This document shows positions 9,301 through 64,000 of a DNA stretch of 64,000 nt, one piece after another. Each line of letters begins with the position of its first letter. Position 1 is the stretch's first letter. This DNA comes from Muricea muricata (lineage: Eukaryota; Cnidaria; Anthozoa; Malacalcyonacea; Plexauridae), in assembly GCA_963855995.1 (NCBI GenBank), contig OY979719.1, positions 3,038,001 through 3,102,000 of the forward strand. Reading direction: 5' to 3'. Below the pieces are notes generated by a model that did not search any database, was not told the DNA's origin, and saw only the letters and a list, made by a program, of their open reading frames with translations. Made by a program: the position numbers and the translations under genes.

Positions 9301-9813
9301 GAAGGCTTTTCAAACATTCCCGCCTCGTTCTGGTGGTCCCTAATCACTATGACAACCGTAGGGTACGGTGACGTATCACCCATGACGATTGGCGGGAAAA
9401 TCGTTGGATGCGCCTGCGCTATAACTGGCGTACTTTTGTTAGCCTTGCCGACGTCCATAGTTACGACAAATTTTTCGTTATACAACGCGTATGCAAAGGC
9501 AAAGATGAAACTACCGCCTCGAAAGAAGACACAAGTGGTAAGCCAAGCCTTGAAAAGTGTTCAGCTTCGAAGCAGAGACGGTTTGCGAAGCAGCATGAAC
9601 AGTCCAACGAACTACTCAGTGTCGTCAAAGAACGGTCAAGATGTAGCCTTCTCAAATACTGCCCCAAGCCTTGTGCGCGCAGTGAGTAGCCCGCGAACTC
9701 GCAGGAAAGCGCTATCGCCATTGGCTATCGAGTTGGATAACATCACTGTTTCCACGAACCCTCATACTAACGGTCTAAATCACGCGGCTCGTCGACGCTC
9801 CAGCTACTCGTGA
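6333..9813 (+). CDS. Shaw/Kv3-type voltage-gated K+ channel subunit with atypical S4 and S6 (2 exons)
   Basis: Plasma-membrane channel subunit of 514 aa. Exons are 6333-6893 and 8830-9813, joined in phase 0 (TGG|gtgagt ... ttttcag|GTA). Exon 1 holds the T1 tetramerisation domain (about residues 14-112), including the zinc motif H79-X5-C85-X20-C106-C107 of non-Shaker Kv families. Exon 2 starts exactly at S1 (188-211), then S2 (221-243, E237), S3 (256-272), S4 (279-305), the pore with TTVGYGD at 362-368, and S6 (375-402). The post-S6 stretch YAKAKMKLPPRKK matches the Kv3/Shaw signature. Odd features: S4 reads K283-Y286-R289-R292-E295-R298 at three-residue spacing, so two usual basic positions are lost, and the S6 PXP gate is P394-T395-S396. 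Both changes recall electrically silent modifier subunits, but function is inferred. The C-tail ends RRRSSYS, a possible basophilic kinase site. The start has A at -3. Confidence 0.93.
6894..8829 (+). other. Intron of the Kv channel gene
   Basis: 1,936-bp intron between the T1 exon and the transmembrane exon. The donor is gtgagt and the acceptor follows a T-rich tract ending in cag. A 34-codon open extension upstream of the acceptor (from 8728) is intronic read-through, not coding. I see no other gene or clear element in it. Confidence 0.8.
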
Positions 9814-21154: not shown

Positions 21155-21736
21155 ATGGCAGACGTGGAATGGTCTAGATCCTGGCTCGGAATGATTTGGT
21201 CGTTTACTTTCTACTTTGTGCTAAATTTCGCTACTTCACTCCTACTTCTACACGTAACGGGAAACGTGCTGTACTCGTTATTGTTGCTACTTTGTTACAT
21301 TTTATTGGCGAAATTTCGCAATGAATACTTTTCAAGAACCAAAGGTCAGTGGACGGTGCACTATCTACTCGAAGAGCTAAAAAGTATAGATGTGAACAGG
21401 AGATCGTTCGTTATAGAACGTTTTGTACAGATGGACAGAAAGAAGGGGGTCAGACAGACAGACATTTGCGAAGCGGAACGATGCGTTGTCTGTCTGGACG
21501 CGAGAGCTGAAATTGAAACATTGCCTTGTCGACATCGCGTGATTTGTGGGCCGTGCGCTTGGGGGACGTTTAAAATGGCTTTACAAAACACTGGTTCGCA
21601 CACGTGCGTTGTTTGTCGCACTCAAATAAAGGATTTCAATGGTTCTTTGTTTAAGAATCTTGTTCACGTAACATGGCAAGACATAGGAAAGATTTTGGAC
21701 GAGACAAAAGCCGTTCAAATACAGACTCATGAATAA
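21155..21736 (+). CDS. Intronless two-pass membrane RING-HC protein, probable E3 ubiquitin ligase
   Basis: 193-aa protein from a single exon. Two hydrophobic segments (about residues 12-34 and 36-52) make a membrane hairpin near the N-terminus. A C-terminal RING-HC domain has the ligands C110-X2-C113-X11-C125-X1-H127-X3-C131-X2-C134-X16-C151-X2-C154, the C3HC4 pattern. Known membrane RING proteins of this type are E3 ligases on the ER, mitochondria or endosomes; the organelle and substrates here are unknown. I chose the start at 21155 (A at -3, G at +4) over an in-frame ATG at 21059, because the upstream 32 codons are not conserved-looking and lie before the membrane segment. The stop codon overlaps a poly(A) signal. 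I cannot assign a named orthologue. Confidence 0.8.
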   Translation: MADVEWSRSWLGMIWSFTFYFVLNFATSLLLLHVTGNVLYSLLLLLCYILLAKFRNEYFSRTKGQWTVHYLLEELKSIDVNRRSFVIERFVQMDRKKGVRQTDICEAERCVVCLDARAEIETLPCRHRVICGPCAWGTFKMALQNTGSHTCVVCRTQIKDFNGSLFKNLVHVTWQDIGKILDETKAVQIQTHE

Positions 21737-34600: not shown

Positions 34601-37600
34601 CCACTTCCAACGCAACTTCAGATATGAGGGGAGGTGTCCCTCCTTCAACGGCGGAATAGATTCCAAGGAATGGATCAGTTCCTGACGTCACAAACTGTGA
34701 CATTGCTGGCGGTGTTGCCCGGACATTTGCGTCACATCCGCCAATGAACGAAGCCGTTTGAAGATGGTCGAATAAACTTGAAGTGACCGTACCTGGAAAA
34801 ACGACCTTAATTTCCATTTGTATTTTCATTCAATTGTCATTATAGCACCTGTAATATCTGGGTCACTCTACAAAAAATGATATCCTGATAACACCCATGA
34901 TAATATTTTTAGGACATTAGATATTTAATTTGTAAATTCGTTTGCTTTTTGTACCTGTACAGTTCATCAAAAAAACATCGTTACCGGGAAATTGTAAAAA
35001 GATTCACTAAGTGTGGAACGATCACTTAACAATTATTAATCTGTTTTTTTACCACAAGAGACAACGTCTGTAATATTTTCCTGTCCCTTAAAGTTCCATT
35101 TCTTGTAAGCCAAAGGAGGGGGTTTAATGCTTTCACCTGTCCCACTTGCCTGAGCTAAATAAAGTTTACAAAGGTAATAAGATGGGCAGCTTCAGACACG
35201 AGTCATACGAGAGTAATACCATCTTCACACAAGACACAGACTAAGGGCCAGCTGTTCAAAAGTCTGTTGGCTCAACCCTGGGTTAACATGAAATTGATTC
35301 AACAAAAATTTCCCGGCAGCTTGTTCATAAGTTTGGAAACATCACTTCAGAAATCTTATCTGGATCAAAAGTAACACAGAAACATGGATGCAGAAATATA
35401 GGAACTAAAACAGTAGGTTACACTTTAACTCAGCTTTGAAAACCAGCCCTAGGTATGTAAGAATGGGATGATTTTGATTCAATTACATATTGTATCGCTA
35501 CAATTCCTGCTCATGGTGGATTAGAATTATGACAACATGTGCTGTAGTTATAGTAAATCAAATGCATAAAACACATTGCACCTACAAACTACATACCTCT
35601 AGCTAACTGATTCCTGCATCCCCTCAATGACTGGTACAAACTAAAGCCATCTAGCAGAACCAATGAAGTTGGATACAAAATGGCGAGTTCTTCAAGTTGC
35701 TCAAAGTCAGTATGTGTAACACCGAGCTGCCATGTCTGACACTTTAGTTTCAACACAGGGTCTTCATGCAGTAATTGATGTAGCAACAGAGAGCCATCCT
35801 ATGTAAAAGTTTGTTCTTAAGGTAAAGATTGAGAAATATAGGACAGAGATTAATTGCAGACCAAGGGCAATAACATACCTCCAAATAGAAGCGGATATAG
35901 CCGGATGTAAAACCAGCCACTATACAAGTCCAATCTGGAAAGCCTTGAGAACTTCTGTTTAATAAATTGTTAACGCCATTTCAATTGATGCAAATTACTG
36001 TGAACATTGCGTGATAAGCATCTAAATCACTATCTGAACAACATACTTGTGTTGTGATGCCAAAGGAATACAAAGTAAACTTGAAATACATTCCCTAAAT
36101 GAAGCATTAAATTGTAAAACAGGTGTAAAACAGATGACAATAGAAAATAACAATTCAAACGAATAAGTTCAAATATTTATTTTAGAAGTAAACATTTTCC
36201 AAACTAAAGTGTACAACTGCAGCAAAGTCATTTTCAAACATTTCAACATGCCATGCCTATACACAGGGGGTCATTGAAGAACATGTTAAAGTGGCTTGCA
36301 GTTGCTGCTAAAGGGTTTATACATCAAGGGGTTGGCACCAAGATGTTTTCAAAGAAATTGTACTTCTGTTAAAGTAGCTCCCCTGAGTTTTATATTGATG
36401 CCATATTTAAGGTGGCTCCCCAAGGGTGTGGAACAAAATATTACCCTTCTTCCAGAGCAAGTTGCCCTGTCCAAGATATTTGAAACTTTGTTTTTGGCCC
36501 TGAAGTTGCTTGCCTGTCCCATTTTGCTGAAAATAATATAGTATAGAATGAATTTCACACTCTTTTGCAATATCTAAGCAACCAAAATTGTTATAGTAGT
36601 ATACTGTATTAGACTACCTTACACTGTATTAGACTACCTTACACTGTATTAGACTACCTTACACTGTATTAGACTACCTTACACTATCTTAGACCACTTA
36701 ACCACAATAACCCACCTAGGGTGGTCTAAAATAGTGTACGGTAGTTGTAAGGCTGTCTACAGTAGTTCTAAGGTAGTCTAAGGTAGTTGTAAGATGGTCT
36801 AAGGCAGTTCTAAGGTAGTCTAAGGTTGTTTAAGATAATTTAAGGTGGTCTAATCTGACTAAGGTGACTTAAGGTGTTCAAAGATGGTCTATTGAAGGTG
36901 GTCCAAGGAAGTTTAAAATAATGTTAGGCAGCATAAGGTTGTCTAATGCGGTCAAAGATGGTCTATTAAGGGCGGTCTAAGGTAGTTTAAGATAGTTTAA
37001 GTTAGCATAAGGAGTTGCAATGTGGTCTAAGCTGGTCCAAGGTGATCTAACGTAGTAGAAAGCATGGACTAAATGTTAATTGTAACTATTTTGGTTGCTT
37101 AGATATCCAGAAAGAGCCATATTTTGGATTTACCAATGTCGGCAACTACTTGCAGATAACATTTTACCTTAATCTGAAAGGATTGCTATGAAATACCTGT
37201 CAGAATAACCAACTTGTCCTCCCTGCCGAAGGCAACTAAGTCCTCACAAGGTGAAACACTAATACAACAATCTTGTAACCAATTATTTTGAATATCCTTT
37301 TCATCAACTTGTTTTTCATCTTCTAATAACTACAGGTTATGAAAACATCATTTAAAATGCAGATAGTGTTCCAATTAAAGGACAAAAATGTATTTGCAAT
37401 ATTTTTTAGTGAGAATTTGTAGGAAATGTAATGAAATGTGGAAACACTGCTTCCAAAATTTTCAAAGAAATTTGTAGTTATATCATCGGCAGCCCAATAA
37501 ACTGTGTAGTCCATAAACATACTTCGTATTTAAATATTATGAGCATACTGATCTCTATATATTACTGAAACTACACTTGTGTGCATAAATGTTTCGTTCT

Positions 37601-43778: not shown

Positions 43779-43928
43779 GATTTGAAATTGAAAAAAAAAC
43801 AACTTTTAATTTTTAAAAATATTTTAAACTCAAAATGGTTATATCGTTATGTTACGCGCACGAAATGTATATTACGTCATTTATAATATAGATCAATGAC
43901 GTCATTTATACAGCATATATGCCATATG
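43779..43928 (-). promoter_or_regulatory. WDR92 upstream region
   Basis: 150 bp between the WDR92 start codon and the minisatellite. It holds two CRE-like TGACGTCA/TTACGTCA motifs (around 43873 and 43898). The promoter role is inferred from position only. Confidence 0.35.
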
Positions 43929-45317
43929 TGTTATAGACGTATTGGTGTTATAGACGTTGTGGCGTTATTGGTGTTATGGGCGTTAATGGTGTTATGGGTG
44001 TTATTGGTGTTATGGGCGTTATTGGTGTTATGGCGTTATTGGTGTTAAAGACGTTATTGGTGTTATGGACGTTATTGGTGTTATAGACGTTATTGGTGTT
44101 ATAGGCGTTATGGCGTTATTGGTGTTATGAAAGTTATTGGTGTTATGGACGTTATTGGTATTATGGACGTTATTGGTGTTATGGACGTTATTGGTGTTAC
44201 AGACGTTATGGCGTTATTGGTGTTATGGACGTTATTGGTGTTATAGACGTTATTGGTGTTACAGACGTTATGGCGTTATTGGTGTTATAGACGTTATGGC
44301 GTTACAGACGTTATGGCGTTATTGGTGTTATATACGTTGTTGGTGTTATAGGCGTTATGGCGTTACAGACGTTATGGTGTTATTGGTGTTATAGACGTTA
44401 CTGGTGTTATAGACGTTATTGGTGTTATAGACGTTACTGGTGTTATAGACGTTATTGGTGTTATAGACGTTATTGGTGTTATAGACGTTATTGGTGTTAT
44501 AGGCGTTATGGCGTTACAGACGTTATGGCGTTATTGGTGTTATGGACGTTATCAGTGTTATAGGCGTTACGGCGTTATTGGTGTTATGGACGTTATTGGT
44601 GTTACAAACGTTATGGCGTTATTGGTGTTAGAGACGTTATTGGTGTTATGGACGTTATGGCGTTATTGGTGTTATGGACGTTATTGGTGTTATAGACGTA
44701 ATGGCGTTACAGACGTTATGGCGTTATTGGTGTTATAGACGTTATGGAGCTATTGGTGTTATGGGCGTTATTGGTGTTATGGGCGTTATTGGTGTTATGG
44801 CGTTACTGGTGTTGTAGACGTTATTGGTGTTATAGACGTTATGGCGTTACAGACGTTATGGCGTTATTGGTGTTATAGACGTTATGGCGTTATTGGTGTT
44901 ATAGACGTTATGGCGTTATTGGTGTTATGGCGTTACTTGTGTTATAGACGTTATTAGTGTTATAGACGTTACTGGTGTTATAGACGTTATTGGTGTTATA
45001 GACGTTATTGGTGTTATAGGCGTTATGGCGTTACAGACGTTATGGCGTTATTGGTGTTATGGACGTTATCGGTGTTATAGGCGTTACGGCGTTATTGGTG
45101 TTATGGACGTTATTGGTGTTACAGACGTTATGGCGTTACAGACGTTATGGCGTTATTGGTGTTATGGACGTTATTGATGTTACAGACGTTATGGCGTTAT
45201 TGGTGTTATAGACATTATTGGTGTTACAGACGTTATGGCGTTATTGGTGTTATGGACGTTATGGCGTTATTGGTCTTATAGACGTTATGGCGTTATTGGT
45301 GTTATGGATGTTATTGG
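43929..45317. repeat. 9/18-bp minisatellite, 1.4 kb, upstream of WDR92
   Basis: Continuous array of about 150 nine-mers of the types GTTATTGGT, GTTATAGAC, GTTATGGAC, GTTACAGAC and the 8-mer GTTATGGC. The commonest higher-order unit is the 18-mer GTTATTGGTGTTATAGAC. CpG within ACGTT recurs throughout. Open frames rich in CYRRYWCYRRYW or VLWTLLVLW are the translated repeat and not a gene. Confidence 0.95.
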
Positions 45318-45477
45318 TTCTTATTCAAACTCCTTTCCTTCCTCAGTGGCGTAGATACTTACCTGGGCCCCAAAGTTGACATTCTCTACTTCTGCGGAAA
45401 CTGAAAAGATGTTTTGCTGGTAAGACGGAAAATACAGCGTGTTGCTTAACATTACTCATGCAGAATTACCCTTTAAA
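45318..45477. other. Unique spacer between minisatellite and satellite array
   Basis: 160 bp not matching either repeat. It contains a possible minus-strand exon (45400-45363). The last bases before 45478 show only partial similarity to the satellite, so this is the array edge. Confidence 0.55.
45363..45400 (-). CDS. Possible orphan internal exon
   Basis: On the minus strand CATCTTTTCAG precedes a 38-nt open segment ending CCCAG|GTAAGT. With two leftover bases at the start it reads VSAEVENVNFGAQ. Acceptor, donor and open frame together suggest a real exon of a minus-strand gene whose other exons would lie beyond or within the repeats. No family is recognised, and short spurious exons are common. 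Confidence 0.22.
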
Positions 45478-46349
45478 TTGCAAAAGACTCAATTGGATTT
45501 ACTTAGAAATAAATTTGTACATACATTTAAAAATGTAATTACACTCAAAAGCAACTTCAAGATCTTCCTCGACAGAGTATGATTAAATATTATTCGATGA
45601 AATGCGAACAAAAGCTCGCGAATGGCTTCGAATAACTTTGATTTAATCTAGCGTGTACATGTATAATAATTCTTAACCAAGTGAAAGTGGTAACTAACAT
45701 AGAAAGTGGTAACTATCATAGTCTGGTGGTAAAGACAATGTGTGTCCCTTCAGAGTCAATCACTGAGTCCGGAAACAATACCTGCCTTTGATAAAAATCG
45801 TTCTGGCTTTGGCCAGTTGTAAGAAATTAGCATAGGCTAGAAGAACGTATAGACAACTTAAACCAACTTGCCGAAGCCTCATAACCAACGTAATGCAGTG
45901 GTCAAATACAAATTACTCAACAAAAGTGGGTAGGGTAAATTCCTACCCTTGCCATGCATTAAATAGTTTTCGTCTTGTGTAAGAATTAATAACCCTTTCC
46001 AAAGTATCTTCTCGTCTATTTTGCAAATTTTTTTAGAAAAAAATTCGTCAAAATTTGACAACTTCTTTTTATCATACAGTCTGATAAAGAAAAATTTTTA
46101 TTTCCTTGTTAACCACACTGGCAAAATTTTTGGTAAATGGAGAAAATAAAAGTTCTAAAAAATCATCGAAAAAAATTGAACAAAAAACCGTGCTCAAAAT
46201 GCTATAGTTTTTCTTAACGGTGGGAGCCATCTTTTTTGGCGAAAAAACCCCAAATAAATAATTGAAAAGAATTACGCTCTACCACTTACATTAGGGCTAT
46301 TGAAAAGCGTCATAAGAGATTGTACGCCGGCCAGCGTAATCAATTTAAA

Positions 46350-46670
46350 TTAAAAAGTTCCAAAAGGTGTCAGGAATTCTGCTACCTTCGAAGGATTAAC
46401 CTTGGAATGGTATAACGATGGTAAAAAGGACCAGGTATTGTAATAAAAGTTTGCACATGGATGGCACTCGGATGGCTTCGCACAATTGGCCTCGACAGCC
46501 CACCAAATGCGGTTGCCTTTCGACAACGACATCGAATTGACTGCCTCAACCGTCTGTGTTATAACTCCACCACCTCTGGTTCGAAATATAGGGGAGGGTG
46601 GAAGCGGCCCCCAGACCGTAAGTGCTAAAACCCTGTATCTTCGAATCAGACCATCAACATATAGTATCAC
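46350..46670 (-). other. Recurrent unrecognised 106-codon open frame in spacer U1
   Basis: Open on the minus strand in satellite units 1, 2, 3, 5 and 6 (also 49661-49981, 52972-53292, 59594-59914, 62905-63225) and interrupted by a stop in unit 4. Methionine start, no recognisable domain, and a competing open frame on the opposite strand. Conservation between copies reflects array homogenisation, so it is not evidence of selection. Probably a fragment of an older element or captured sequence. Confidence 0.3.
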
Positions 46671-47769
46671 CGATTTGTATATATATACCTCATGCTCTGC
46701 TGTTGCAGTGATTGTGGTTGAATTACGACCGGGTAGACACTATTGCCATGCGCACATGCATCTATATATAGGCTGCTGTTATTAACGTGCTGTATAAGTT
46801 TTATCATATCAAAATATAATTTGCGTGGTCATTTATGCAATCAGCGAAAAACATTTCCATTTATTTAATACTTATCGTGTCTGTAGTGCCTCAGCAATAA
46901 ACTTGTTCTTCGACATTAGATTTAAATAGTGATCTGTTTAGTTCAATGATATATATTGAACGTCATATAGCTGGGTCATTAAATTTGGAAATGTATGTTT
47001 GATCAGAATTTACATGGTCTTCTCCGAGTATAAGAGAAGGCTGATTTCAACACACATTTATCTTTCAAATGTTCTACTTACAAAAATATGGGATTTTAAA
47101 ATTCGTAGCACCAGAAACCTACTGTATGCCCAAGTTGTAATCTTACCCATTTTTGTTATTGTGATATTGCAAAAGACTCAATTGGATTTATTTAGAAATA
47201 AATTTGTGCATATAAATGTAATTACACTCAAAAGCAACTTCAAGATCTTCCTCGACAGAGTATGAGCAAATATTATTCGATGAAATGCGAACAAAAGCTC
47301 GCGAATGGCTTCGAATAACTTTGATTTAATCTAGCGTGTATATTTATAATAATTCTTACCCCAGACAAAAACCTATGGGGTTTGTGACAAGGGCAATTAG
47401 GTTTGACCAAAACTCGTTGACTTGAGACATTTTGCATTGGCCACTAGACTATATATGTTTGCTATCACGCGCTTGCCACTTAAATTGTTTAAGCGGGCTT
47501 TTCTCTAGCCTATAATTAATTCTAAAACATGAAAAGAATTCAGAGCAAGGGAATTATCGTTCAGCTGCGTTGTTTATTTACCGCCACTTTGCCTTACCAC
47601 CAGACCGCGTTGGCTATTACACTCGCCCTATTTTACCCGTTTTTAACTGAATGAGCTTTAAGAAATGGTTAAACGGCCATAAACCACTAAAAATCGTAGA
47701 TGTGTCAATTAGACATAAATGAAAAGGGTGAGACGTTCTCTGACTAAAATATATTTATTTGTTTACGAG

Positions 47770-47801
47770 CTTTCGGCCACCAGTCTGTAGCCTTCAACGG
47801 G
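47770..47801 (-). ncRNA. Degenerate hammerhead-ribozyme-like core (one per satellite unit)
   Basis: Minus strand reads CCGTTGAAGGCTAC, a 6-base loop, then GTGGCCGAAAG. GGCTAC pairs completely with GTGGCC (one G-U pair) as stem II, followed by the invariant GAAA. The CUGAUGA box is CCGUUGA here, changed at two positions including the conserved A6, so self-cleavage is doubtful. Hammerheads of this form sit at the 3' end of Penelope-like elements, downstream of the GIY-YIG domain as here. Further copies: 51081-51112, 54392-54423, 57703-57734, 61014-61045. Confidence 0.6.
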
Positions 47802-47895
47802 TATATTTATAATGATTGCAGTAAACTGTGAAAGTGTGAAATGAAGCTAGATATGACGTGTATACATGTGCACTGTGAAATACGATAAGGTGATA

Positions 47896-48150
47896 CTATG
47901 TTTTCTTTATTAAGATTGTACATTGTCGAGGAAGCGGTTTTGAGTTGTTATCAGCATTGCTGTGTTTGGCAGCTGTATGCCATGATTCTAGACTTTCTAG
48001 TGTTAGGCGACTACGGAAATTCCCTGTGTCAATGATTTTCGCGTTGCACGTTTTTCGATGTTTGAACCATTATCATGTTCCTTAACGTTTCTGATGTGTT
48101 CAGCCTTTCTTGTTTCCAGAGATCTGCCTGTTTCCCCTAAGTACAGGCAG
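47896..48150 (-). pseudogene. Penelope-like element fragment: GIY-YIG endonuclease C-terminal part, frameshifted
   Basis: On the minus strand, one frame reads LGETGRSLETRKAEHIRNVK and runs to a stop. A shift in frame then continues with FRSRLTLESLESWHTA and SKPLPRQCTILIKK to a stop at 47896-47898. The GETGRSLETR-EH and LESWHT motifs are typical of the GIY-YIG endonuclease of Penelope-like retroelements. The reverse transcriptase and the GIY-YIG catalytic N-terminus are absent. Copies in other units: 51207-51461, 54518-54772, 57829-58083, 61140-61394. Confidence 0.75.
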
Positions 48151-48180
48151 ATATTTTAAAAGAAGAAAAGCAAATGATCA

Positions 48181-48362
48181 CGCATGGCAATAGTGCCTAC
48201 CTGGTCGTAATTCAACCACAATTAGTGCAACAGCAAAGCATGACGTATATAAATACAAATCGGTCGTACTATAGTATCACCGATTTGTATTTATATACGT
48301 CATGCTTTGCTGTTGCACTGATTGTGGTTGAATTACGACCAGGTAGGCACTATTGCCATGCG
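48181..48362. repeat. 182-bp near-perfect palindrome (one per satellite unit)
   Basis: From CGCATGGCAATAGTGCCTAC to its inverted copy GTAGGCACTATTGCCATGCG, centred at 48271.5. Each arm is about 91 bases with essentially no loop (the centre TACTATAGTA is itself palindromic) and roughly one mismatch per arm (near 48222). The right arm is the end of block S, so the left arm is an inverted S terminus. Further copies: 51492-51673, 54803-54984, 58114-58295, 61425-61606. Confidence 0.93.
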
Positions 48363-48787
48363 CACATGCATCTATATATAGGCTGCTGTTATTAACGTGC
48401 TGTGTAAGTTTTATCATAAACATCAAAATATAATTTGCGTGGTCATTTATGCAATCTGCGAAACACATTTCCATTTATTTAATACTTATCGTCTCTGTAG
48501 TGCTCCAGCAATAATGTTGTTCTTCGAAATTAGATTTAAATAGTGATCTGCTTTGTTCAATGATATATATATATTGGACGCCTATAGCTAGGTCATTATA
48601 TTTGGAAAAGTATGTTTGATCAGAATTTACAAGGTCTTCTCCCAGTATAAGAGAAGGCTGATTTCAACACACATTTATTTTTCAAATGTTTTATTACTCA
48701 CAAAAATATAGGCTTTTAAAATTCGTAGCACCAGAAACCTACTATATGCTCAAGTTTTGACCTTACCCATTTTTGTTATTTGTGATA

Positions 48788-51700
48788 TTGCAAAAGACTC
48801 AATTGGATTTATTTAGAAATAAATTTGTACACACATTTAAAAATGTAATTACACTCAAAAGCAACTTCAAGATCTTCCTCGACAGAGTATGATTAAATAT
48901 TATTCGATGAAATGCGAACAAAAGCTCGCGAATGGCTTCGAATAACTTTGATTTAATCTAGCGTGTATATGTATAATAATTCTTAACCCAGTGAAAGTGG
49001 TAAACTAACATAGAAAGTGGTAACTAACATAGTCTGGTGGTAAAGACAATGTGTGTCTTTTCAGAGTCAATCACTGAGTCCGGGAACAATACCTGCCTTT
49101 GATAAAAATCGTTCTGGCGTTGGTCAGTTTTAAGAATTAAGCATAGGCTAGAAGAACGTATAGACAACTCAAACCAACTTGCCGAAGCCTCATAACCAAC
49201 GTAATGCAGTGGTCAAATACAAATTACTCAACAAAAGTGGGTAGGGTAAATTCCTACCCTTGCCATGCATTAAATAGTTTTCGTCTTGTGTAAGAATTAA
49301 TAACCCTTTCCAAAGTATCTTCTCGTCTATTTTGCAAATTTTTTTAGAAAAAAATTCGTCAAAATTTGACAACTTCTTTTTATCATACAGTCTGATAAAG
49401 AAAAATTTTTATTTCCTTGTTAACCACACTGGCAAAATTTTTGGTAAATGGAGAAAATAAAAGTTCTAAAAAATCATCGAAAAAAATTGAACAAAAAACC
49501 GTGCTCAAAATGCTATAGTTTTTCTTAACGGTGGGAGCCATCTTTTTTGGCGAAAAAACCCCAAATAAATAATTGAAAAGAATTACGCTCTACCACTTAC
49601 ATTAGGGCTATTGAAAAGCGTCATAAGAGATTGTACGCCGGCCAGCGTAATCAATTTAAATTAAAAAGTTCCAAAAGGTGTCAGGAATTCTGCTACCTTC
49701 GAAGGATTAACCTTGGAATGGTATAACGATGGTAAAAAGGACCAGGTATTGTAATAAAAGTTTGCACATGGATGGCACTCGGATGGCTTCGCACAATTGG
49801 CCTCGACAGCCCACCAAATGCGGTTGCCTTTCGACAACGACATCGAATTGACTGCCTCAACCGTCTGTGTTATAACTCCACCACCTCTGGTTCGAAATAT
49901 AGGGGAGGGTAGAAGCGGCCCCCAGACCGTAAGTGCTAAAACCCTGTATCTTCGAATCAGACCATCAACATATAGTATCACCGATTTGTATATATATACC
50001 TCATGCTCTGCTGTTGCAGTGATTGTGGTTGAATTACGACCGGGTAGACACTATTGCCATGCGCACATGCATCTATATATAGGCTGCTGTTATTAACGTG
50101 CTGTATAAGTTTTATCATATCAAAATATAATTTGCGTGGTCATTTATGCAATCAGCGAAAAACATTTCCATTTATTTAATACTTATCGTGTCTGTAGTGC
50201 CTCAGCAATAAAATTGTTCTTCGACATTAGATTTAAATAGTGATCTGTTTAGTTCAATGATATATATTGAACGTCATATAGCTGGGTCATTAAATTTGGA
50301 AATGTATGTTTGATCAGAATTTACATGGTCTTCTCCGAGTATAAGAGAAGGCTGATTTCAACACACATTTATCTTTCAAATGTTCTACTTACAAAAATAT
50401 GGGATTTTAAAATTCGTAGCACCAGAAACCTACTGTATGCCCAAGTTGTAATCTTACCCATTTTTGTTATTGTGATATTGCAAAAGACTCAATTGGATTT
50501 ATTTAGAAATAAATTTGTGCATATAAATGTAATTACACTCAAAAGCAACTTCAAGATCTTCCTCGACAGAGTATGAGCAAATATTATTCGATGAAATGCG
50601 AACAAAAGCTCGCGAATGGCTTCGAATAACTTTGATTTAATCTAGCGTGTATATTTATAATAATTCTTACCCCAGACAAAAACCTATGGGGTTTGTGACA
50701 AGGGCAATTAGGTTTGACCAAAACTCGTTGACTTGAGACATTTTGCATTGGCCACTAGACTATATATGTTTGCTATCACGCGCTTGCCACTTAAATTGTT
50801 TAAGCGGGCTTTTCTCTAGCCTATAATTAATTCTAAAACATGAAAAGAATTCAGAGCAAGGGAATTATCGTTCAGCTGCGTTGTTTATTTACCGCCACTT
50901 TGCCTTACCACCAGACCGCGTTGGCTATTACACTCGCCCTATTTTACCCGTTTTTAACTGAATGAGCTTTAAGAAATGGTTAAACGGCCATAAACCACTA
51001 AAAATCGTAGATGTGTCAATTAGACATAAATGAAAAGGGTGAGACGTTCTCTGACTAAAATATATTTATTTGTTTACGAGCTTTCGGCCACCAGTCTGTA
51101 GCCTTCAACGGGTATATTTATAATGATTGCAGTAAACTGTGAAAGTGTGAAATGAAGCTAGATATGACGTGTATACATGTGCACTGTGAAATACGATAAG
51201 GTGATACTATGTTTTCTTTATTAAGATTGTACATTGTCGAGGAAGCGGTTTTGAGTTGTTATCAGCATTGCTGTGTTTGGCAGCTGTATGCCATGATTCT
51301 AGACTTTCTAGTGTTAGGCGACTACGGAAATTCCCTGTGTCAATGATTTTCGCGTTGCACGTTTTTCGATGTTTGAACCATTATCATGTTCCTTAACGTT
51401 TCTGATGTGTTCAGCCTTTCTTGTTTCCAGAGATCTGCCTGTTTCCCCTAAGTACAGGCAGATATTTTAAAAGAAGAAAAGCAAATGATCACGCATGGCA
51501 ATAGTGCCTACCTGGTCGTAATTCAACCACAATTAGTGCAACAGCAAAGCATGACGTATATAAATACAAATCGGTCGTACTATAGTATCACCGATTTGTA
51601 TTTATATACGTCATGCTTTGCTGTTGCACTGATTGTGGTTGAATTACGACCAGGTAGGCACTATTGCCATGCGCACATGCATCTATATATAGGCTGCTGT

Positions 51701-52098
51701 TATTAACGTGCTGTGTAAGTTTTATCATAAACATCAAAATATAATTTGCGTGGTCATTTATGCAATCTGCGAAACACATTTCCATTTATTTAATACTTAT
51801 CGTCTCTGTAGTGCTCCAGCAATAATGTTGTTCTTCGAAATTAGATTTAAATAGTGATCTGCTTTGTTCAATGATATATATATATTGGACGCCTATAGCT
51901 AGGTCATTATATTTGGAAAAGTATGTTTGATCAGAATTTACAAGGTCTTCTCCCAGTATAAGAGAAGGCTGATTTCAACACACATTTATTTTTCAAATGT
52001 TTTATTACTCACAAAAATATAGGCTTTTAAAATTCGTAGCACCAGAAACCTACTATATGCTCAAGTTTTGACCTTACCCATTTTTGTTATTTGTGATA
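48788..52098. repeat. Satellite unit 2
   Basis: 3,311 bp. Shares TTCGTCTTGTG and ATACATGTGCACTG variants with unit 1, and otherwise matches the later units. Confidence 0.95.
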
Positions 52099-55000
52099 TT
52101 GCAAAAGACTCAATTGGATTTATTTAGAAATAAATTTGTACACACATTTAAAAATGTAATTACACTCAAAAGCAACTTCAAGATCTTCCTCGACAGAGTA
52201 TGATTAAATATTATTCGATGAAATGCGAACAAAAGCTCGCGAATGGCTTCGAATAACTTTGATTTAATCTAGCGTGTATATGTATAATAATTCTTAACCC
52301 AGTGAAAGTGGTAAACTAACATAGAAAGTGGTAACTAACATAGTCTGGTGGTAAAGACAATGTGTGTCTTTTCAGAGTCAATCACTGAGTCCGGGAACAA
52401 TACCTGCCTTTGATAAAAATCGTTCTGGCGTTGGTCAGTTTTAAGAATTAAGCATAGGCTAGAAGAACGTATAGACAACTCAAACCAACTTGCCGAAGCC
52501 TCATAACCAACGTAATGCAGTGGTCAAATACAAATTACTCAACAAAAGTGGGTAGGGTAAATTCCTACCCTTGCCATGCATTAAATAGTTTTCGCCTTGT
52601 GTAAGAATTAATAACCCTTTCCAAAGTATCTTCTCGTCTATTTTGCAAATTTTTTTAGAAAAAAATTCGTCAAAATTTGACAACTTCTTTTTATCATACA
52701 GTCTGATAAAGAAAAATTTTTATTTCCTTGTTAACCACACTGGCAAAATTTTTGGTAAATGGAGAAAATAAAAGTTCTAAAAAATCATCGAAAAAAATTG
52801 AACAAAAAACCGTGCTCAAAATGCTATAGTTTTTCTTAACGGTGGGAGCCATCTTTTTTGGCGAAAAAACCCCAAATAAATAATTGAAAAGAATTACGCT
52901 CTACCACTTACATTAGGGCTATTGAAAAGCGTCATAAGAGATTGTACGCCGGCCAGCGTAATCAATTTAAATTAAAAAGTTCCAAAAGGTGTCAGGAATT
53001 CTGCTACCTTCGAAGGATTAACCTTGGAATGGTATAACGATGGTAAAAAGGACCAGGTATTGTAATAAAAGTTTGCACATGGATGGCACTCGGATGGCTT
53101 CGCACAATTGGCCTCGACAGCCCACCAAATGCGGTTGCCTTTCGACAACGACATCGAATTGACTGCCTCAACCGTCTGTGTTATAACTCCACCACCTCTG
53201 GTTCGAAATATAGGGGAGGGTAGAAGCGGCCCCCAGACCGTAAGTGCTAAAACCCTGTATCTTCGAATCAGACCATCAACATATAGTATCACCGATTTGT
53301 ATATATATACCTCATGCTCTGCTGTTGCAGTGATTGTGGTTGAATTACGACCGGGTAGACACTATTGCCATGCGCACATGCATCTATATATAGGCTGCTG
53401 TTATTAACGTGCTGTATAAGTTTTATCATATCAAAATATAATTTGCGTGGTCATTTATGCAATCAGCGAAAAACATTTCCATTTATTTAATACTTATCGT
53501 GTCTGTAGTGCCTCAGCAATAAAATTGTTCTTCGACATTAGATTTAAATAGTGATCTGTTTAGTTCAATGATATATATTGAACGTCATATAGCTGGGTCA
53601 TTAAATTTGGAAATGTATGTTTGATCAGAATTTACATGGTCTTCTCCGAGTATAAGAGAAGGCTGATTTCAACACACATTTATCTTTCAAATGTTCTACT
53701 TACAAAAATATGGGATTTTAAAATTCGTAGCACCAGAAACCTACTGTATGCCCAAGTTGTAATTTTACCCATTTTTGTTATTGTGATATTGCAAAAGACT
53801 CAATTGGATTTATTTAGAAATAAATTTGTGCATATAAATGTAATTACACTCAAAAGCAACTTCAAGATCTTCCTCGACAGAGTATGAGCAAATATTATTC
53901 GATGAAATGCGAACAAAAGCTCGCGAATGGCTTCGAATAACTTTGATTTAATCTAGCGTGTATATTTATAATAATTCTTACCCCAGACAAAAACCTATGG
54001 GGTTTGTGACAAGGGCAATTAGGTTTGACCAAAACTCGTTGACTTGAGACATTTTGCATTGGCCACTAGACTATATATGTTTGCTATCACGCGCTTGCCA
54101 CTTAAATTGTTTAAGCGGGCTTTTCTCTAGCCTATAATTAATTCTAAAACATGAAAAGAATTCAGAGCAAGGGAATTATCGTTCAGCTGCGTTGTTTATT
54201 TACCGCCACTTTGCCTTACCACCAGACCGCGTTGGCTATTACACTCGCCCTATTTTACCCGTTTTTAACTGAATGAGCTTTAAGAAATGGTTAAACGGCC
54301 ATAAACCACTAAAAATCGTAGATGTGTCAATTAGACATAAATGAAAAGGGTGAGACGTTCTCTGACTAAAATATATTTATTTGTTTACGAGCTTTCGGCC
54401 ACCAGTCTGTAGCCTTCAACGGGTATATTTATAATGATTGCAGTAAACTGTGAAAGTGTGAAATGAAGCTAGATATGACGTGTATACTTGTGCACTGTGA
54501 AATACGATAAGGTGATACTATGTTTTCTTTATTAAGATTGTACATTGTCGAGGAAGCGGTTTTGAGTTGTTATCAACATTGCTGTGTTTGGCAGCTGTAT
54601 GCCATGATTCTAGACTTTCTAGTGTTAGGCGACTACGGAAATTTCCTGTGTCAATGATTTTCGCGTTGCACGTTTTTCGATGTTTGAACCATTATCATGT
54701 TCCTTAACGTTTCTGATGTGTTCAGCCTTTCTTGTTTCCAGAGATCTGCCTGTTTCCCCTAAGTACAGGCAGATATTTTAAAAGAAGAAAAGCAAATGAT
54801 CACGCATGGCAATAGTGCCTACCTGGTCGTAATTCAACCACAATTAGTGCAACAGCAAAGCATGACGTATATAAATACAAATCGGTCGTACTATAGTATC
54901 ACCGATTTGTATTTATATACGTCATGCTTTGCTGTTGCACTGATTGTGGTTGAATTACGACCAGGTAGGCACTATTGCCATGCGCACATGCATCTATATA

Positions 55001-55409
55001 TAGGCTGCTGTTATTAACGTGCTGTGTAAGTTTTATCATAAACATCAAAATATAATTTGCGTGGTCATTTATGCAATCTGCGAAACACATTTCCATTTAT
55101 TTAATACTTATCGTCTCTGTAGTGCTCCAGCAATAATGTTGTTCTTCGAAATTAGATTTAAATAGTGATCTGCTTTGTTCAATGATATATATATATTGGA
55201 CGCCTATAGCTAGGTCATTATATTTGGAAAAGTATGTTTGATCAGAATTTACAAGGTCTTCTCCCAGTATAAGAGAAGGCTGATTTCAACACACATTTAT
55301 TTTTCAAATGTTTTATTACTCACAAAAATATAGGCTTTTAAAATTCGTAGCACCAGAAACCTACTATATGCTCAAGTTTTGACCTTACCCATTTTTGTTA
55401 TTTGTGATA
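52099..55409. repeat. Satellite unit 3
   Basis: 3,311 bp. First copy with TTCGCCTTGTG, ATACTTGTGCACTG and AATTTTACCC variants. Private change TTATCAACATTG near 54581. Confidence 0.95.
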
Positions 55410-58400
55410 TTGCAAAAGACTCAATTGGATTTATTTAGAAATAAATTTGTACACACATTTAAAAATGTAATTACACTCAAAAGCAACTTCAAGATCTTCC
55501 TCGACAGAGTATGATTAAATATTATTCGATGAAATGCGAACAAAAGCTCGCGAATGGCTTCGAATAACTTTGATTTAATCTAGCGTGTATATGTATAATA
55601 ATTCTTAACCCAGTGAAAGTGGTAAACTAACATAGAAAGTGGTAACTAACATAGTCTGGTGGTAAAGACAATGTGTGTCTTTTCAGAGTCAATCACTGAG
55701 TCCGGGAACAATACCTGCCTTTGATAAAAATCGTTCTGGCGTTGGTCAGTTTTAAGAATTAAGCATAGGCTAGAAGAACGTATAGACAACTCAAACCAAC
55801 TTGCCGAAGCCTCATAACCAACGTAATGCAGTGGTCAAATACAAATTACTCAACAAAAGTGGGTAGGGTAAATTCCTACCCTTGCCATGCATTAAATAGT
55901 TTTCGCCTTGTGTAAGAATTAATAACCCTTTCCAAAGTATCTTCTCGTCTATTTTGCAAATTTTTTTAGAAAAAAATTCGTCAAAATTTGACAACTTCTT
56001 TTTATCATACAGTCTGATAAAGAAAAATTTTTATTTCCTTGTTAACCACACTGGCAAAATTTTTGGTAAATGGAGAAAATAAAAGTTCTAAAAAATCATC
56101 GAAAAAAATTGAACAAAAAACCGTGCTCAAAATGCTATAGTTTTTCTTAACGGTGGGAGCCATCTTTTTTGGCGAAAAAACCCTAAATAAATAATTGAAA
56201 AGAATTACGCTCTACCACTTACATTAGGGCTATTGAAAAGCGTCATAAGAGATTGTACGCCGGCCAGCGTAATCAATTTAAATTAAAAAGTTCCAAAAGG
56301 TGTCAGGAATTCTGCTACCTTCGAAGGATTAACCTTGGAATGGTATAACGATGGTAAAAAGGACCAGGTATTGTAATAAAAGTTTGCACATGGATGGCAC
56401 TCGGATGGCTTCGCACAATTGGCCTCGACAGCCCACCAAATGCGGTTGCCTTTCGACAACGACATCGAATTGACTGCCTCAACCGTCTGTGTTATAACTC
56501 CACCACCTCTGGTTCAAAATATAGGGGAGGGTAGAAGCGGCCCCCAGACCGTTAGTGCTAAAACCCTGTATCTTCGAATCAGACCATCAACATATAGTAT
56601 CACCGATTTGTATATATATACCTCATGCTCTGCTGTTGCAGTGATTGTGGTTGAATTACGACCGGGTAGACACTATTGCCATGCGCACATGCATCTATAT
56701 ATAGGCTGCTGTTATTAACGTGCTGTATAAGTTTTATCATATCAAAATATAATTTGCGTGGTCATTTATGCAATCAGCGAAAAACATTTCCATTTATTTA
56801 ATACTTATCGTGTCTGTAGTGCCTCAGCAATAAAATTGTTCTTCGACATTAGATTTAAATAGTGATCTGTTTAGTTCAATGATATATATTGAACGTCATA
56901 TAGCTGGGTCATTAAATTTGGAAATGTATGTTTGATCAGAATTTACATGGTCTTCTCCGAGTATAAGAGAAGGCTGATTTCAACACACATTTATCTTTCA
57001 AATGTTCTACTTACAAAAATATGGGATTTTAAAATTCGTAGCACCAGAAACCTACTGTATGCCCAAGTTGTAATTTTACCCATTTTTGTTATTGTGATAT
57101 TGCAAAAGACTCAATTGGATTTATTTAGAAATAAATTTGTGCATATAAATGTAATTACACTCAAAAGCAACTTCAAGATCTTCCTCGACAGAGTATGAGC
57201 AAATATTATTCGATGAAATGCGAACAAAAGCTCGCGAATGGCTTCGAATAACTTTGATTTAATCTAGCGTGTATATTTATAATAATTCTTACCCCAGACA
57301 AAAACCTATGGGGTTTGTGACAAGGGCAATTAGGTTTGACCAAAACTCGTTGACTTGAGACATTTTGCATTGGCCACTAGACTATATATGTTTGCTATCA
57401 CGCGCTTGCCACTTAAATTGTTTAAGCGGGCTTTTCTCTAGCCTATAATTAATTCTAAAACATGAAAAGAATTCAGAGCAAGGGAATTATCGTTCAGCTG
57501 CGTTGTTTATTTACCGCCACTTTGCCTTACCACCAGACCGCGTTGGCTATTACACTCGCCCTATTTTACCCGTTTTTAACTGAATGAGCTTTAAGAAATG
57601 GTTAAACGGCCATAAACCACTAAAAATCGTAGATGTGTCAATTAGACATAAATGAAAAGGGTGAGACGTTCTCTGACTAAAATATATTTATTTGTTTACG
57701 AGCTTTCGGCCACCAGTCTGTAGCCTTCAACGGGTATATTTATAATGATTGCAGTAAACTGTGAAAGTGTGAAATGAAGCTAGATATGACGTGTATACTT
57801 GTGCACTGTGAAATACGATAAGGTGATACTATGTTTTCTTTATTAAGATTGTACATTGTCGAGGAAGCGGTTTTGAGTTGTTATCAGCATTGCTGTGTTT
57901 GGCAGCTGTATGCCATGATTCTAGACTTTCTAGTGTTAGGCGACTACGGAAATTTCCTGTGTCAATGATTTTCGCGTTGCACGTTTTTCGATGTTTGAAC
58001 CATTATCATGTTCCTTAACGTTTCTGATGTGTTCAGCCTTTCTTGTTTCCAGAGATCTGCCTGTTTCCCCTAAGTACAGGCAGATATTTTAAAAGAAGAA
58101 AAGCAAATGATCACGCATGGCAATAGTGCCTACCTGGTCGTAATTCAACCACAATTAGTGCAACAGCAAAGCATGACGTATATAAATACAAATCGGTCGT
58201 ACTATAGTATCACCGATTTGTATTTATATACGTCATGCTTTGCTGTTGCACTGATTGTGGTTGAATTACGACCAGGTAGGCACTATTGCCATGCGCACAT
58301 GCATCTATATATAGGCTGCTGTTATTAACGTGCTGTGTAAGTTTTATCATAAACATCAAAATATAATTTGCGTGGTCATTTATGCAATCTGCGAAACACA

Positions 58401-58720
58401 TTTCCATTTATTTAATACTTATCGTCTCTGTAGTGCTCCAGCAATAATGTTGTTCTTCGAAATTAGATTTAAATAGTGATCTGCTTTGTTCAATGATATA
58501 TATATATTGGACGCCTATAGCTAGGTCATTATATTTGGAAAAGTATGTTTGATCAGAATTTACAAGGTCTTCTCCCAGTATAAGAGAAGGCTGATTTCAA
58601 CACACATTTATTTTTCAAATGTTTTATTACTCACAAAAATATAGGCTTTTAAAATTCGTAGCACCAGAAACCTACTATATGCTCAAGTTTTGACCTTACC
58701 CATTTTTGTTATTTGTGATA
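55410..58720. repeat. Satellite unit 4
   Basis: 3,311 bp. Shares ACCCTAAATAA and CCGTTAGTGC with unit 5. A private C-to-T (GGTTCAAAAT near 56512) puts a stop into the U1 minus-strand frame that is open in all other copies. Confidence 0.95.
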
Positions 58721-61700
58721 TTGCAAAAGACTCAATTGGATTTATTTAGAAATAAATTTGTACACACATTTAAAAATGTAATTACACTCAAAAGCAACTT
58801 CAAGATCTTCCTCGACAGAGTATGATTAAATATTATTCGATGAAATGCGAACAAAAGCTCGCGAATGGCTTCGAATAACTTTGATTTAATCTAGCGTGTA
58901 TATGTATAATAATTCTTAACCCAGTGAAAGTGGTAAACTAACATAGAAAGTGGTAACTAACATAGTCTGGTGGTAAAGACAATGTGTGTCTTTTCAGAGT
59001 CAATCACTGAGTCCGGGAACAATACCTGCCTTTGATAAAAATCGTTCTGGCGTTGGTCAGTTTTAAGAATTAAGCATAGGCTAGAAGAACGTATAGACAA
59101 CTCAAACCAACTTGCCGAAGCCTCATAACCAACGTAATGCAGTGGTCAAATACAAATTACTCAACAAAAGTGGGTAGGGTAAATTCCTACCCTTGCCATG
59201 CATTAAATAGTTTTCGCCTTGTGTAAGAATTAATAACCCTTTCCAAAGTATCTTCTCGTCTATTTTGCAAATTTTTTTAGAAAAAAATTCGTCAAAATTT
59301 GACAACTTCTTTTTATCATACAGTCTGATAAAGAAAAATTTTTATTTCCTTGTTAACCACACTGGCAAAATTTTTGGTAAATGGAGAAAATAAAAGTTCT
59401 AAAAAATCATCGAAAAAAATTGAACAAAAAACCGTGCTCAAAATGCTATAGTTTTTCTTAACGGTGGGAGCCATCTTTTTTGGCGAAAAAACCCTAAATA
59501 AATAATTGAAAAGAATTACGCTCTACCACTTACATTAGGGCTATTGAAAAGCGTCATAAGAGATTGTACGCCGGCCAGCGTAATCAATTTAAATTAAAAA
59601 GTTCCAAAAGGTGTCAGGAATTCTGCTACCTTCGAAGGATTAACCTTGGAATGGTATAACGATGGTAAAAAGGACCAGGTATTGTAATAAAAGTTTGCAC
59701 ATGGATGGCACTCGGATGGCTTCGCACAATTGGCCTCGACAGCCCACCAAATGCGGTTGCCTTTCGACAACGACATCGAATTGACTGCCTCAACCGTCTG
59801 TGTTATAACTCCACCACCTCTGGTTCGAAATATAGGGGAGGGTAGAAGCGGCCCCCAGACCGTTAGTGCTAAAACCCTGTATCTTCGAATCAGACCATCA
59901 ACATATAGTATCACCGATTTGTATATATATACCTCATGCTCTGCTGTTGCAGTGATTGTGGTTGAATTACGACCGGGTAGACACTATTGCCATGCGCACA
60001 TGCATCTATATATAGGCTGCTGTTATTAACGTGCTGTATAAGTTTTATCATATCAAAATATAATTTGCGTGGTCATTTATGCAATCAGCGAAAAACATTT
60101 CCATTTATTTAATACTTATCGTGTCTGTAGTGCCTCAGCAATAAAATTGTTCTTCGACATTAGATTTAAATAGTGATCTGTTTAGTTCAATGATATATAT
60201 TGAACGTCATATAGCTGGGTCATTAAATTTGGAAATGTATGTTTGATCAGAATTTACATGGTCTTCTCCGAGTATAAGAGAAGGCTGATTTCAACACACA
60301 TTTATCTTTCAAATGTTCTACTTACAAAAATATGGGATTTTAAAATTCGTAGCACCAGAAACCTACTGTATGCCCAAGTTGTAATTTTACCCATTTTTGT
60401 TATTGTGATATTGCAAAAGACTCAATTGGATTTATTTAGAAATAAATTTGTGCATATAAATGTAATTACACTCAAAAGCAACTTCAAGATCTTCCTCGAC
60501 AGAGTATGAGCAAATATTATTCGATGAAATGCGAACAAAAGCTCGCGAATGGCTTCGAATAACTTTGATTTAATCTAGCGTGTATATTTATAATAATTCT
60601 TACCCCAGACAAAAACCTATGGGGTTTGTGACAAGGGCAATTAGGTTTGACCAAAACTCGTTGACTTGAGACATTTTGCATTGGCCACTAGACTATATAT
60701 GTTTGCTATCACGCGCTTGCCACTTAAATTGTTTAAGCGGGCTTTTCTCTAGCCTATAATTAATTCTAAAACATGAAAAGAATTCAGAGCAAGGGAATTA
60801 TCGTTCAGCTGCGTTGTTTATTTACCGCCACTTTGCCTTACCACCAGACCGCGTTGGCTATTACACTCGCCCTATTTTACCCGTTTTTAACTGAATGAGC
60901 TTTAAGAAATGGTTAAACGGCCATAAACCACTAAAAATCGTAGATGTGTCAATTAGACATAAATGAAAAGGGTGAGACGTTCTCTGACTAAAATATATTT
61001 ATTTGTTTACGAGCTTTCGGCCACCAGTCTGTAGCCTTCAACGGGTATATTTATAATGATTGCAGTAAACTGTGAAAGTGTGAAATGAAGCTAGATATGA
61101 CGTGTATACTTGTGCACTGTGAAATACGATAAGGTGATACTATGTTTTCTTTATTAAGATTGTACATTGTCGAGGAAGCGGTTTTGAGTTGTTATCAGCA
61201 TTGCTGTGTTTGGCAGCTGTATGCCATGATTCTAGACTTTCTAGTGTTAGGCGACTACGGAAATTTCCTGTGTCAATGATTTTCGCGTTGCACGTTTTTC
61301 GATGTTTGAACCATTATCATGTTCCTTAACGTTTCTGATGTGTTCAGCCTTTCTTGTTTCCAGAGATCTGCCTGTTTCCCCTAAGTACAGGCAGATATTT
61401 TAAAAGAAGAAAAGCAAATGATCACGCATGGCAATAGTGCCTACCTGGTCGTAATTCAACCACAATTAGTGCAACAGCAAAGCATGACGTATATAAATAC
61501 AAATCGGTCGTACTATAGTATCACCGATTTGTATTTATATACGTCATGCTTTGCTGTTGCACTGATTGTGGTTGAATTACGACCAGGTAGGCACTATTGC
61601 CATGCGCACATGCATCTATATATAGGCTGCTGTTATTAACGTGCTGTGTAAGTTTTATCATAAACATCAAAATATAATTTGCGTGGTCATTTATGCAATC

Positions 61701-62031
61701 TGCGAAACACATTTCCATTTATTTAATACTTATCGTCTCTGTAGTGCTCCAGCAATAATGTTGTTCTTCGAAATTAGATTTAAATAGTGATCTGCTTTGT
61801 TCAATGATATATATATATTGGACGCCTATAGCTAGGTCATTATATTTGGAAAAGTATGTTTGATCAGAATTTACAAGGTCTTCTCCCAGTATAAGAGAAG
61901 GCTGATTTCAACACACATTTATTTTTCAAATGTTTTATTACTCACAAAAATATAGGCTTTTAAAATTCGTAGCACCAGAAACCTACTATATGCTCAAGTT
62001 TTGACCTTACCCATTTTTGTTATTTGTGATA
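58721..62031. repeat. Satellite unit 5
   Basis: 3,311 bp, nearly identical to unit 4 but with the U1 frame open. Confidence 0.95.
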
Positions 62032-64000
62032 TTGCAAAAGACTCAATTGGATTTATTTAGAAATAAATTTGTACACACATTTAAAAATGTAATTACACTC
62101 AAAAGCAACTTCAAGATCTTCCTCGACAGAGTATGATTAAATATTATTCGATGAAATGCGAACAAAAGCTCGCGAATGGCTTCGAATAACTTTGATTTAA
62201 TCTAGCGTGTATATGTATAATAATTCTTAACCCAGTGAAAGTGGTAAACTAACATAGAAAGTGGTAACTAACATAGTCTGGTGGTAAAGACAATGTGTGT
62301 CTTTTCAGAGTCAATCACTGAGTCCGGGAACAATACCTGCCTTTGATAAAAATCGTTCTGGCGTTGGTCAGTTTTAAGAATTAAGCATAGGCTAGAAGAA
62401 CGTATAGACAACTCAAACCAACTTGCCGAAGCCTCATAACCAACGTAATGCAGTGGTCAAATACAAATTACTCAACAAAAGTGGGTAGGGTAAATTCCTA
62501 CCCTTGCCATGCATTAAATAGTTTTCGCCTTGTGTAAGAATTAATAACCCTTTCCAAAGTATCTTCTCGTCTATTTTGCAAATTTTTTTAGAAAAAAATT
62601 CGTCAAAATTTGACAACTTCTTTTTATCATACAGTCTGATAAAGAAAAATTTTTATTTCCTTGTTAACCACACTGGCAAAATTTTTGGTAAATGGAGAAA
62701 ATAAAAGTTCTAAAAAATCATCGAAAAAAATTGAACAAAAAACCGTGCTCAAAATGCTATAGTTTTTCTTAACGGTGGGAGCCATCTTTTTTGGCGAAAA
62801 AACCCCAAATAAATAATTGAAAAGAATTACGCTCTACCACTTACATTAGGGCTATTGAAAAGCGTCATAAGAGATTGTACGCCGGCCAGCGTAATCAATT
62901 TAAATTAAAAAGTTCCAAAAGGTGTCAGGAATTCTGCTACCTTCGAAGGATTAACCTTGGAATGGTATAACGATGGTAAAAAGGACCAGGTATTGTAATA
63001 AAAGTTTGCACATGGATGGCACTCGGATGGCTTCGCACAATTGGCCTCGACAGCCCACCAAATGCGGTTGCCTTTCGACAACGACATCGAATTGACTGCC
63101 TCAACCGTCTGTGTTATAACTCCACCACCTCTGGTTCGAAATATAGGGGAGGGTAGAAGCGGCCCCCAGACCGTAAGTGCTAAAACCCTGTATCTTCGAA
63201 TCAGACCATCAACATATAGTATCACCGATTTGTATATATATACCTCATGCTCTGCTGTTGCAGTGATTGTGGTTGAATTACGACCGGGTAGACACTATTG
63301 CCATGCGCACATGCATCTATATATAGGCTGCTGTTATTAACGTGCTGTATAAGTTTTATCATATCAAAATATAATTTGCGTGGTCATTTATGCAATCAGC
63401 GAAAAACATTTCCATTTATTTAATACTTATCGTGTCTGTAGTGCCTCAGCAATAAAATTGTTCTTCGACATTAGATTTAAATAGTGATCTGTTTAGTTCA
63501 ATGATATATATTGAACGTCATATAGCTGGGTCATTAAATTTGGAAATGTATGTTTGATCAGAATTTACATGGTCTTCTCCGAGTATAAGAGAAGGCTGAT
63601 TTCAACACACATTTATCTTTCAAATGTTCTACTTACAAAAATATGGGATTTTAAAATTCGTAGCACCAGAAACCTACTGTATGCCCAAGTTGTAATCTTA
63701 CCCATTTTTGTTATTGTGATATTGCAAAAGACTCAATTGGATTTATTTAGAAATAAATTTGTGCATATAAATGTAATTACACTCAAAAGCAACTTCAAGA
63801 TCTTCCTCGACAGAGTATGAGCAAATATTATTCGATGAAATGCGAACAAAAGCTCGCGAATGGCTTCGAATAACTTTGATTTAATCTAGCGTGTATATTT
63901 ATAATAATTCTTACCCCAGACAAAAACCTATGGGGTTTGTGACAAGGGCAATTAGGTTTGACCAAAACTCGTTGACTTGAGACATTTTGCATTGGCCACT
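62032..64000. repeat. Satellite unit 6 (cut by window end)
   Basis: First 1,969 bp of the unit. It returns to the ACCCCAAATAA, CCGTAAGTGC and AATCTTACCC variants of units 1-2 while keeping TTCGCCTTGTG of units 3-5. Confidence 0.95.

Follow-up and report, generated by a model that had tools for sequence, protein, structure and literature searches.

Is the array of 3,311-bp units at the right-hand side of a 64,000-nucleotide stretch of the Muricea muricata genome a free-standing satellite, as the original prediction held, or the inside of something larger? This whole stretch (hereafter the window; C4:3,038,001-3,102,000) was analysed together with the genome to which it belongs, 453 Mb in 74 contigs. 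The array proved to be as real, regular and kilobase-scaled as predicted, with exact 24-mer offsets in the window that peak at 3,311 and multiples thereof. It begins on the forward strand at 45,477, one base before the predicted start at 45,478, occupies the window up to 64,000 with 5.6 units, and runs on, as had been expected, to C4:3,106,919. Relative to a reference unit at 48,400-51,710, the three other full units are identical at 99.79-99.85%, the first partial unit at 99.42% and the last, which leaves the window, at 99.58%. Single-base differences between units had been reported as well, and amount to 1-23 bases in pairwise comparison of the five full units on C4. Because the units are thus already distinct in the assembly, a trivial copy artefact seems unlikely. 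Over-expansion of one unit during assembly would likewise have to account for the point changes that separate the units, and for arrays at other loci with differing unit numbers and spacing, and we regard it as very improbable.

The unit is composite in the way that had been described, with two S blocks and two unrelated spacers: S2 (722 bp), spacer A (979 bp), S1 (705 bp) and spacer B (905 bp) add up to 3,311 bp. In an example unit on the forward strand, these lie at 48,270-48,991 (S2), 48,992-49,970 (A), 49,971-50,675 (S1) and 50,676-51,580 (B). S1 and S2 are 91.8% identical, and the sole stretch common to A and B is a 34-bp inverted match. Spacer B closes with ~90 bp that repeat the start of S2 in inverted form, and the B/S2 junction holds a 182-bp palindrome (48,181-48,362), in which 88 of 91 positions are complementary in the five copies found in C4 and the six in C2. 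For the copy on C14, a search with the palindrome motif gave 0 matches, yet BLAST shows the inverted match there. An Rfam search gave no match at the gathering threshold. With E values up to 5, six matches appear, all under their gathering scores, five of which sit on the palindrome (mir-2513, mir-15, mir-3149 and two others) and the sixth of which is RT-6 in spacer A (E 4). A tRNA search found none.

What lies at the edge of the array answers the opening question. The array on C4 lies inside an element with terminal inverted repeats (TIRs) that spans C4:3,081,837-3,109,033 (27.2 kb) and is flanked on both sides by the 8-bp direct repeat CTCAAAAT. The left copy of this duplication is at 43,829-43,836 in the window, and the right copy follows directly after C4:3,109,033, outside the window. 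Inward from the left copy, all on the forward strand, come the outer part of the left TIR, beginning GGTTATATCGTTATGTTACGCGCAC (43,837-43,927), a subterminal minisatellite of GTTATTGGTGTTATAGACGTTATGGC-like repeats that recurs inverted at the right end of the element (43,928-45,318), and a linker from minisatellite to array (45,319-45,476). A second array, in opposite orientation, is located at C2:6.07-6.12 Mb. The similarity between the two loci extends beyond the array edge and through the minisatellite, and ends at one common base; at both, the minisatellite is found inverted on the far side of the array, and the outermost bases are inverted repeats beginning GGTTATATCGTTATGTTACGCGCAC. The C2 element measures 51.6 kb and is flanked by 8-bp direct repeats of its own, AAATGCTG. 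Therefore, the inverted outer ends and the 8-bp direct repeats at both loci place the array inside a TIR element, and the claim of a free-standing satellite array does not hold. In overall layout, the termini are inverted repeats that start with GGTTATATCG, the subterminal minisatellites are likewise inverted, one end has a gag-protease fragment close by, and the head-to-tail array lies in between. The long TIRs with internal tandem repeats that define foldback elements are present as well, as the minisatellite that, in C4 and C2, is found at either end in inverted orientation.

These ends recur at many other sites of the genome. With up to 3 mismatches allowed, the TIR 25-mer is found at 106 places (reversed control 0). 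Pairing of ends gave 22 elements from 100 listed places, and four more with the aid of a 15-mer search (77 places). The 26 paired elements range from 3.7 to 215 kb, with a median of about 31.5 kb, and comprise 1.25 Mb altogether. The ends of all were read, and perfect 8-bp duplications flank 24 of the 26 (18/20, 2/2 and 4/4), including elements of 164, 169 and 215 kb. When the left flanks of the first 22 pairs were set against the right flanks of other elements, 0 of 462 swaps were identical; the target sites are unrelated to one another. At C3:24,840,070, the duplication GAAACGGA is present on both sides only when the right end is read 2 bp further out, and the pair at C16:10910221-10971792 is without a duplication and may represent the ends of two different copies joined together. 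As expected of class II elements, TIRs are found at both ends and the target duplication has a fixed length of 8 bp. The original prediction had named units scattered as complete elements with target duplications as the observation that would speak against it; what is scattered in this manner is the whole array-bearing element. A classical satellite should have no transposon ends bounding it. That such an array, whose units would indeed be head-to-tail and homogenised as they are here, came to lie by chance between two inverted repeats is extremely improbable in view of the identical TIRs and perfect duplications at these 24 loci, the recurrence of complete elements and a gag module at a fixed position.

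Our preferred reading, which we give a probability of roughly 0.8, is that a large and apparently non-autonomous DNA transposon moves via its TIRs, with the array as a variable core that is resized inside it. A transposase supplied in trans, most likely of the Merlin type, would cut at the TIRs and move all DNA between them. Between moves, unequal exchange or conversion in each element would alter the copy number and homogenise the units, and such changes in copy number would yield the size range from 3.7 to 215 kb. The ends alone seem to suffice, since elements of ~100 bp are bounded by the same TIRs: mini-elements of about 101-114 bp share their TIRs with the large elements, and of 11 such mini-elements, seven have perfect duplications, three have one mismatch and one was unscored. 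Six of the seven perfectly duplicated ones (L078, L081, L082, L084, L085 and L086; ~110 bp) have one duplication in common, GAAATATT/AATATTTC, and a larger repeat has thus probably carried them along. Among 20 unpaired TIR matches sampled, one (L098) has a long interior unlike that of either the array elements or the mini-elements. The 7.7-kb copy on C14 was considered as an autonomous element and rejected, as its odd right end is another inserted repeat. This insertion into the right TIR (L087, C14:8229900-8237740) is a ~270-bp repeat with inverted ends CATTGACATAWATACATCTGGACTGCC.

The gag-protease segment is found at a constant place in these elements. A 34-mer from it has 37 occurrences: 23 of the 26 elements have one each, and of the remaining 14, all outside these elements, several adjoin unpaired TIR ends. 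By eye, the module is nearer the end with the longer TA run in its TIR in 20/20 cases, i.e. those of the first 22 elements that have gag. Its 225-aa open reading frame is open in C4, C2 and C14, with the upstream part in a different frame. With the C14 protein as query, identity over the main match was 96-100% in 13 of the 23 elements; the remaining 10 gave 74-95%, and some of them contain stops. Long open frames elsewhere in the genome (1,312-1,328 aa) are ~62% identical to this protein, and the segment is best read as a captured fragment. Between C4 and C14, about 4 replacement versus 3 silent differences were counted by eye, thus giving no sign of selection. The Pfam match to a zinc knuckle is weak and below the cut-off (E 0.07); from the motifs CCHC and DTGATSH, we presume the fragment to be of Copia type. 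Could the arrays then be tandem LTR retrotransposons, with the S blocks as LTRs and A and B as internal parts? The order S-A-S-B and a gag-protease fragment in the same element would suit this. However, the fragment lies outside the array, A is unrelated to B, and a Pfam search of five ORFs of the unit gave no domain above the cut-off (best E 0.12), so we consider this explanation highly improbable.

How far the arrays are shared among elements can be followed through the S blocks. The array or its junction is seen in 6 of the 26 elements, and the other 20 interiors are known for the gag module only. S-type units are present in all three elements whose complete sequence was read, namely C4, C2:6.1 Mb and, at C14:8.23 Mb, the 7.7-kb element, and the elements at C6:13.19 Mb and C16:7.16 Mb have a left array junction identical to that of C4. 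In the 164-kb element there are at least 76 S-block places, spanning at least 133 kb. Genome-wide, the monomer, as represented by an S-block 22-mer, occurs at 1,418 places (control 0); among 100 matches listed, the 164-kb element accounts for 76 and the C2:6.1 Mb element for 23, and one is solitary. These listed matches, apparently in contig order, start with C2. Distances between successive S blocks alternate in the window (1,621/1,690), and mostly do so in the C2:6.1 Mb element as well (1,621 and 1,691). In the 164-kb element, spacings of 1,690-1,699 are interspersed with steps of 2,228-2,239 that recur every 1 to 11 steps. Thus, the spacings differ between the C2:6.1 Mb and 164-kb elements, indicating one monomer family with different higher-order patterns per element.

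So did the arrays themselves move, or only the ends? In the alternative to transposition of whole arrays, small TIR elements were inserted and the arrays grew afterwards in place, so that the copies of 164-215 kb would have been smaller whenever they moved. A target duplication records when the ends were inserted and not how large the element then was, and homogenised units within elements, together with the differing spacing patterns, make later change likely. We give growth in place about an even chance. Against it stands the comparison of C4 with C2:6.1 Mb, an argument restricted to these two and not extending to the giant elements. Their left junctions are exactly alike (this junction being found in four elements altogether). 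The last ~4 kb of the C4 array are degenerate, with 86-91% identity and an insertion of ~2 kb; in C2:6.1 Mb the register and the internal break of this last, degenerate unit are the same, and the ~2-kb minisatellite is inserted at one common point of the degenerate right edge. The right arms are 98.9% identical. As the edges, breaks and insertion point are alike, an array bounded in this way was already present in the ancestor of both, and would therefore predate the move. Judging by these sequences, at least one array, that of C4 and C2:6.1 Mb, is thus one that moved as an array, a claim that leaves out its ancestral length. The units diverge by 0.33% within C4 (5 units), by 0.46% within C2 (12 units) and by 0.90% between the two, while C2 units 3 and 4 are nearer to a unit of C4 than to most others within C2. 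This pattern is consistent with exchange within elements and, in addition, some variants that are older and shared or have been exchanged. As such, satellite arrays in M. muricata appear to travel as transposon cargo.

Which enzyme would mobilise them? Searches with the TIR 25-mer and 15-mer, the unpaired ends and the mini-elements found no transposase-bearing element with these TIRs. Four transposase families were searched, and among the matches scored, a single rva_4 gene lies inside an element. This gene is in the 215-kb copy (150 of 1,177 rva_4 candidates were scored) and is probably nested; with so many candidates in the family, its presence there is no surprise. By eye, 0 of the 150 hAT candidates scored (of 1,175) fall inside a listed element. 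None of the 66 KDZ matches (Zisupton etc.) was seen inside a large element, and a comparison by script of 35 of these puts the nearest at distances of 6.5 kb and 13.5 kb from TIR matches that are short or single. When ~100 TIR positions were compared with the 58 Merlin-type matches in the genome (DDE_Tnp_IS1595), none of the latter came closer than 200 kb; the ends of an autonomous element might deviate at more than 3 of the 25 bases. The Merlin superfamily, as outlined in the cited source, has TIR ends with 5'-GG and duplications of 8-9 bp (PMC8101967). Here, the TIRs start with 5'-GG and the duplication is within that range, and we lean slightly towards a Merlin-type enzyme as the one that would mobilise these elements. 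At C1:66.71 Mb (L108), a decayed HTH fragment adjoins an end AGATATATCG; this candidate was dropped, since the rva_4 domain is found outward of it. Contig C1 (124 Mb) has many KDZ, hAT, Merlin and rva_4 matches among those listed, and one short paired element only.

The one solitary S-block match raises the question of where the monomer came from. This locus (L028, C2:5.36 Mb), outside the listed elements, carries one S-A monomer of 1,687 bp, 92% identical, with both ends at a single point of spacer A. Inside the array, monomers abut at this same point with one extra base. The 3,311-bp unit has a single perfect 7-bp stem that is GC-rich, at about 49,238-49,259 in spacer A, and this stem ends 4 bp before the point; the chance of any perfect 7-bp stem being so placed is 2.4% of positions. 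Helitron-like elements have a hairpin near the 3' end and a CTRR terminus, and make no duplication. At L028 the hairpin is present, CTRR is absent and no duplication is seen by eye. These features hint that the S-A monomer may formerly have been mobile, perhaps in a Helitron-like manner. Taken further, the 1.69-kb monomer would be a Helitron-like rolling-circle element and the arrays its concatemers within the TIR transposon. The shared end point and the nearby stem speak for this, but there is a single solitary copy, the CTRR end is missing, and the array edges on C4 lie in S, beside TTAA on both sides, i.e. away from the L028 end point; we deem such an origin unlikely. A broader picture, somewhat doubtful but worth stating, would be that of a mobile macrosatellite, in which whole arrays, nearly gene-free and of a size that perhaps reaches about 215 kb, are relocated by a transposase that acts on short ends alone; each array would evolve its own higher-order pattern, and the monomer may be a rolling-circle element nested in the transposon.

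Returning to the variable core of a TIR transposon as the preferred reading, its parts have counterparts in known systems. The foldback transposon Tetris of Drosophila virilis is described as having a satellite unit of ~220 bp in its TIR, with arrays of up to 66 copies (PMC4079207). Like the present family, going by that description, Tetris is apparently non-autonomous, has long TIRs with internal tandem repeats, feeds satellite arrays, and has TIR ends that recur in a short element, DAIBAM; its duplications are 8-10 bp versus 8 bp here (PMC4079207). Unlike in Tetris, the unit here is a 1.6-3.3-kb composite in the middle of the element, and elements with both ends and the duplication reach 215 kb. 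The non-autonomous Cg_HINE Helentrons of oyster, as summarised in their source, carry monomers that are mostly 140-180 bp long, with usually no more than 5 and at most 29 in an array; they share central tandem arrays in a mobile element and element-specific flanks with our family, but belong to another class of mobile element (PMC7492417). One Merlin family holds 3-4 units of a 163-bp tandem repeat (PMC8101967). Compared to Merlin as described in that source, both size and array are far larger here, and no TIR-linked transposase was found. Giant eukaryotic transposons such as Teratorn (180 kb) and Starships are likewise transposon-bounded units of at least 100 kb, and are outlined as virus-derived or gene-carrying, whereas here, where interiors were read, the bulk is tandem repeat (PMC10175614, PMC12289983, PMC6431247).

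Among the titles and abstract openings listed in searches of open-licence papers, none describes a TIR element with a kilobase-unit array. Here, kilobase-unit arrays are found in complete elements with intact duplications at several loci of one genome, and this touches on how satellite families reach new chromosomal sites and on how large a DNA-transposon load can be. Since the arrays lie in complete duplicated elements, spread by transposition and local growth by exchange become separable, and datable per element.

Elsewhere in the window, a 234-aa ORF at 21,032-21,736 has transmembrane-like stretches and, by eye, a RING-finger-like cysteine pattern. The ORFs at 6,297-9,813, with tetramerisation and six-transmembrane parts, resemble a Kv-type potassium channel gene in their translation. 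Four more minisatellites are present, at 14,248-14,538 (39-bp period), 18,932-19,302 (19), 32,508-32,664 (22) and 36,603-37,037 (10-74).
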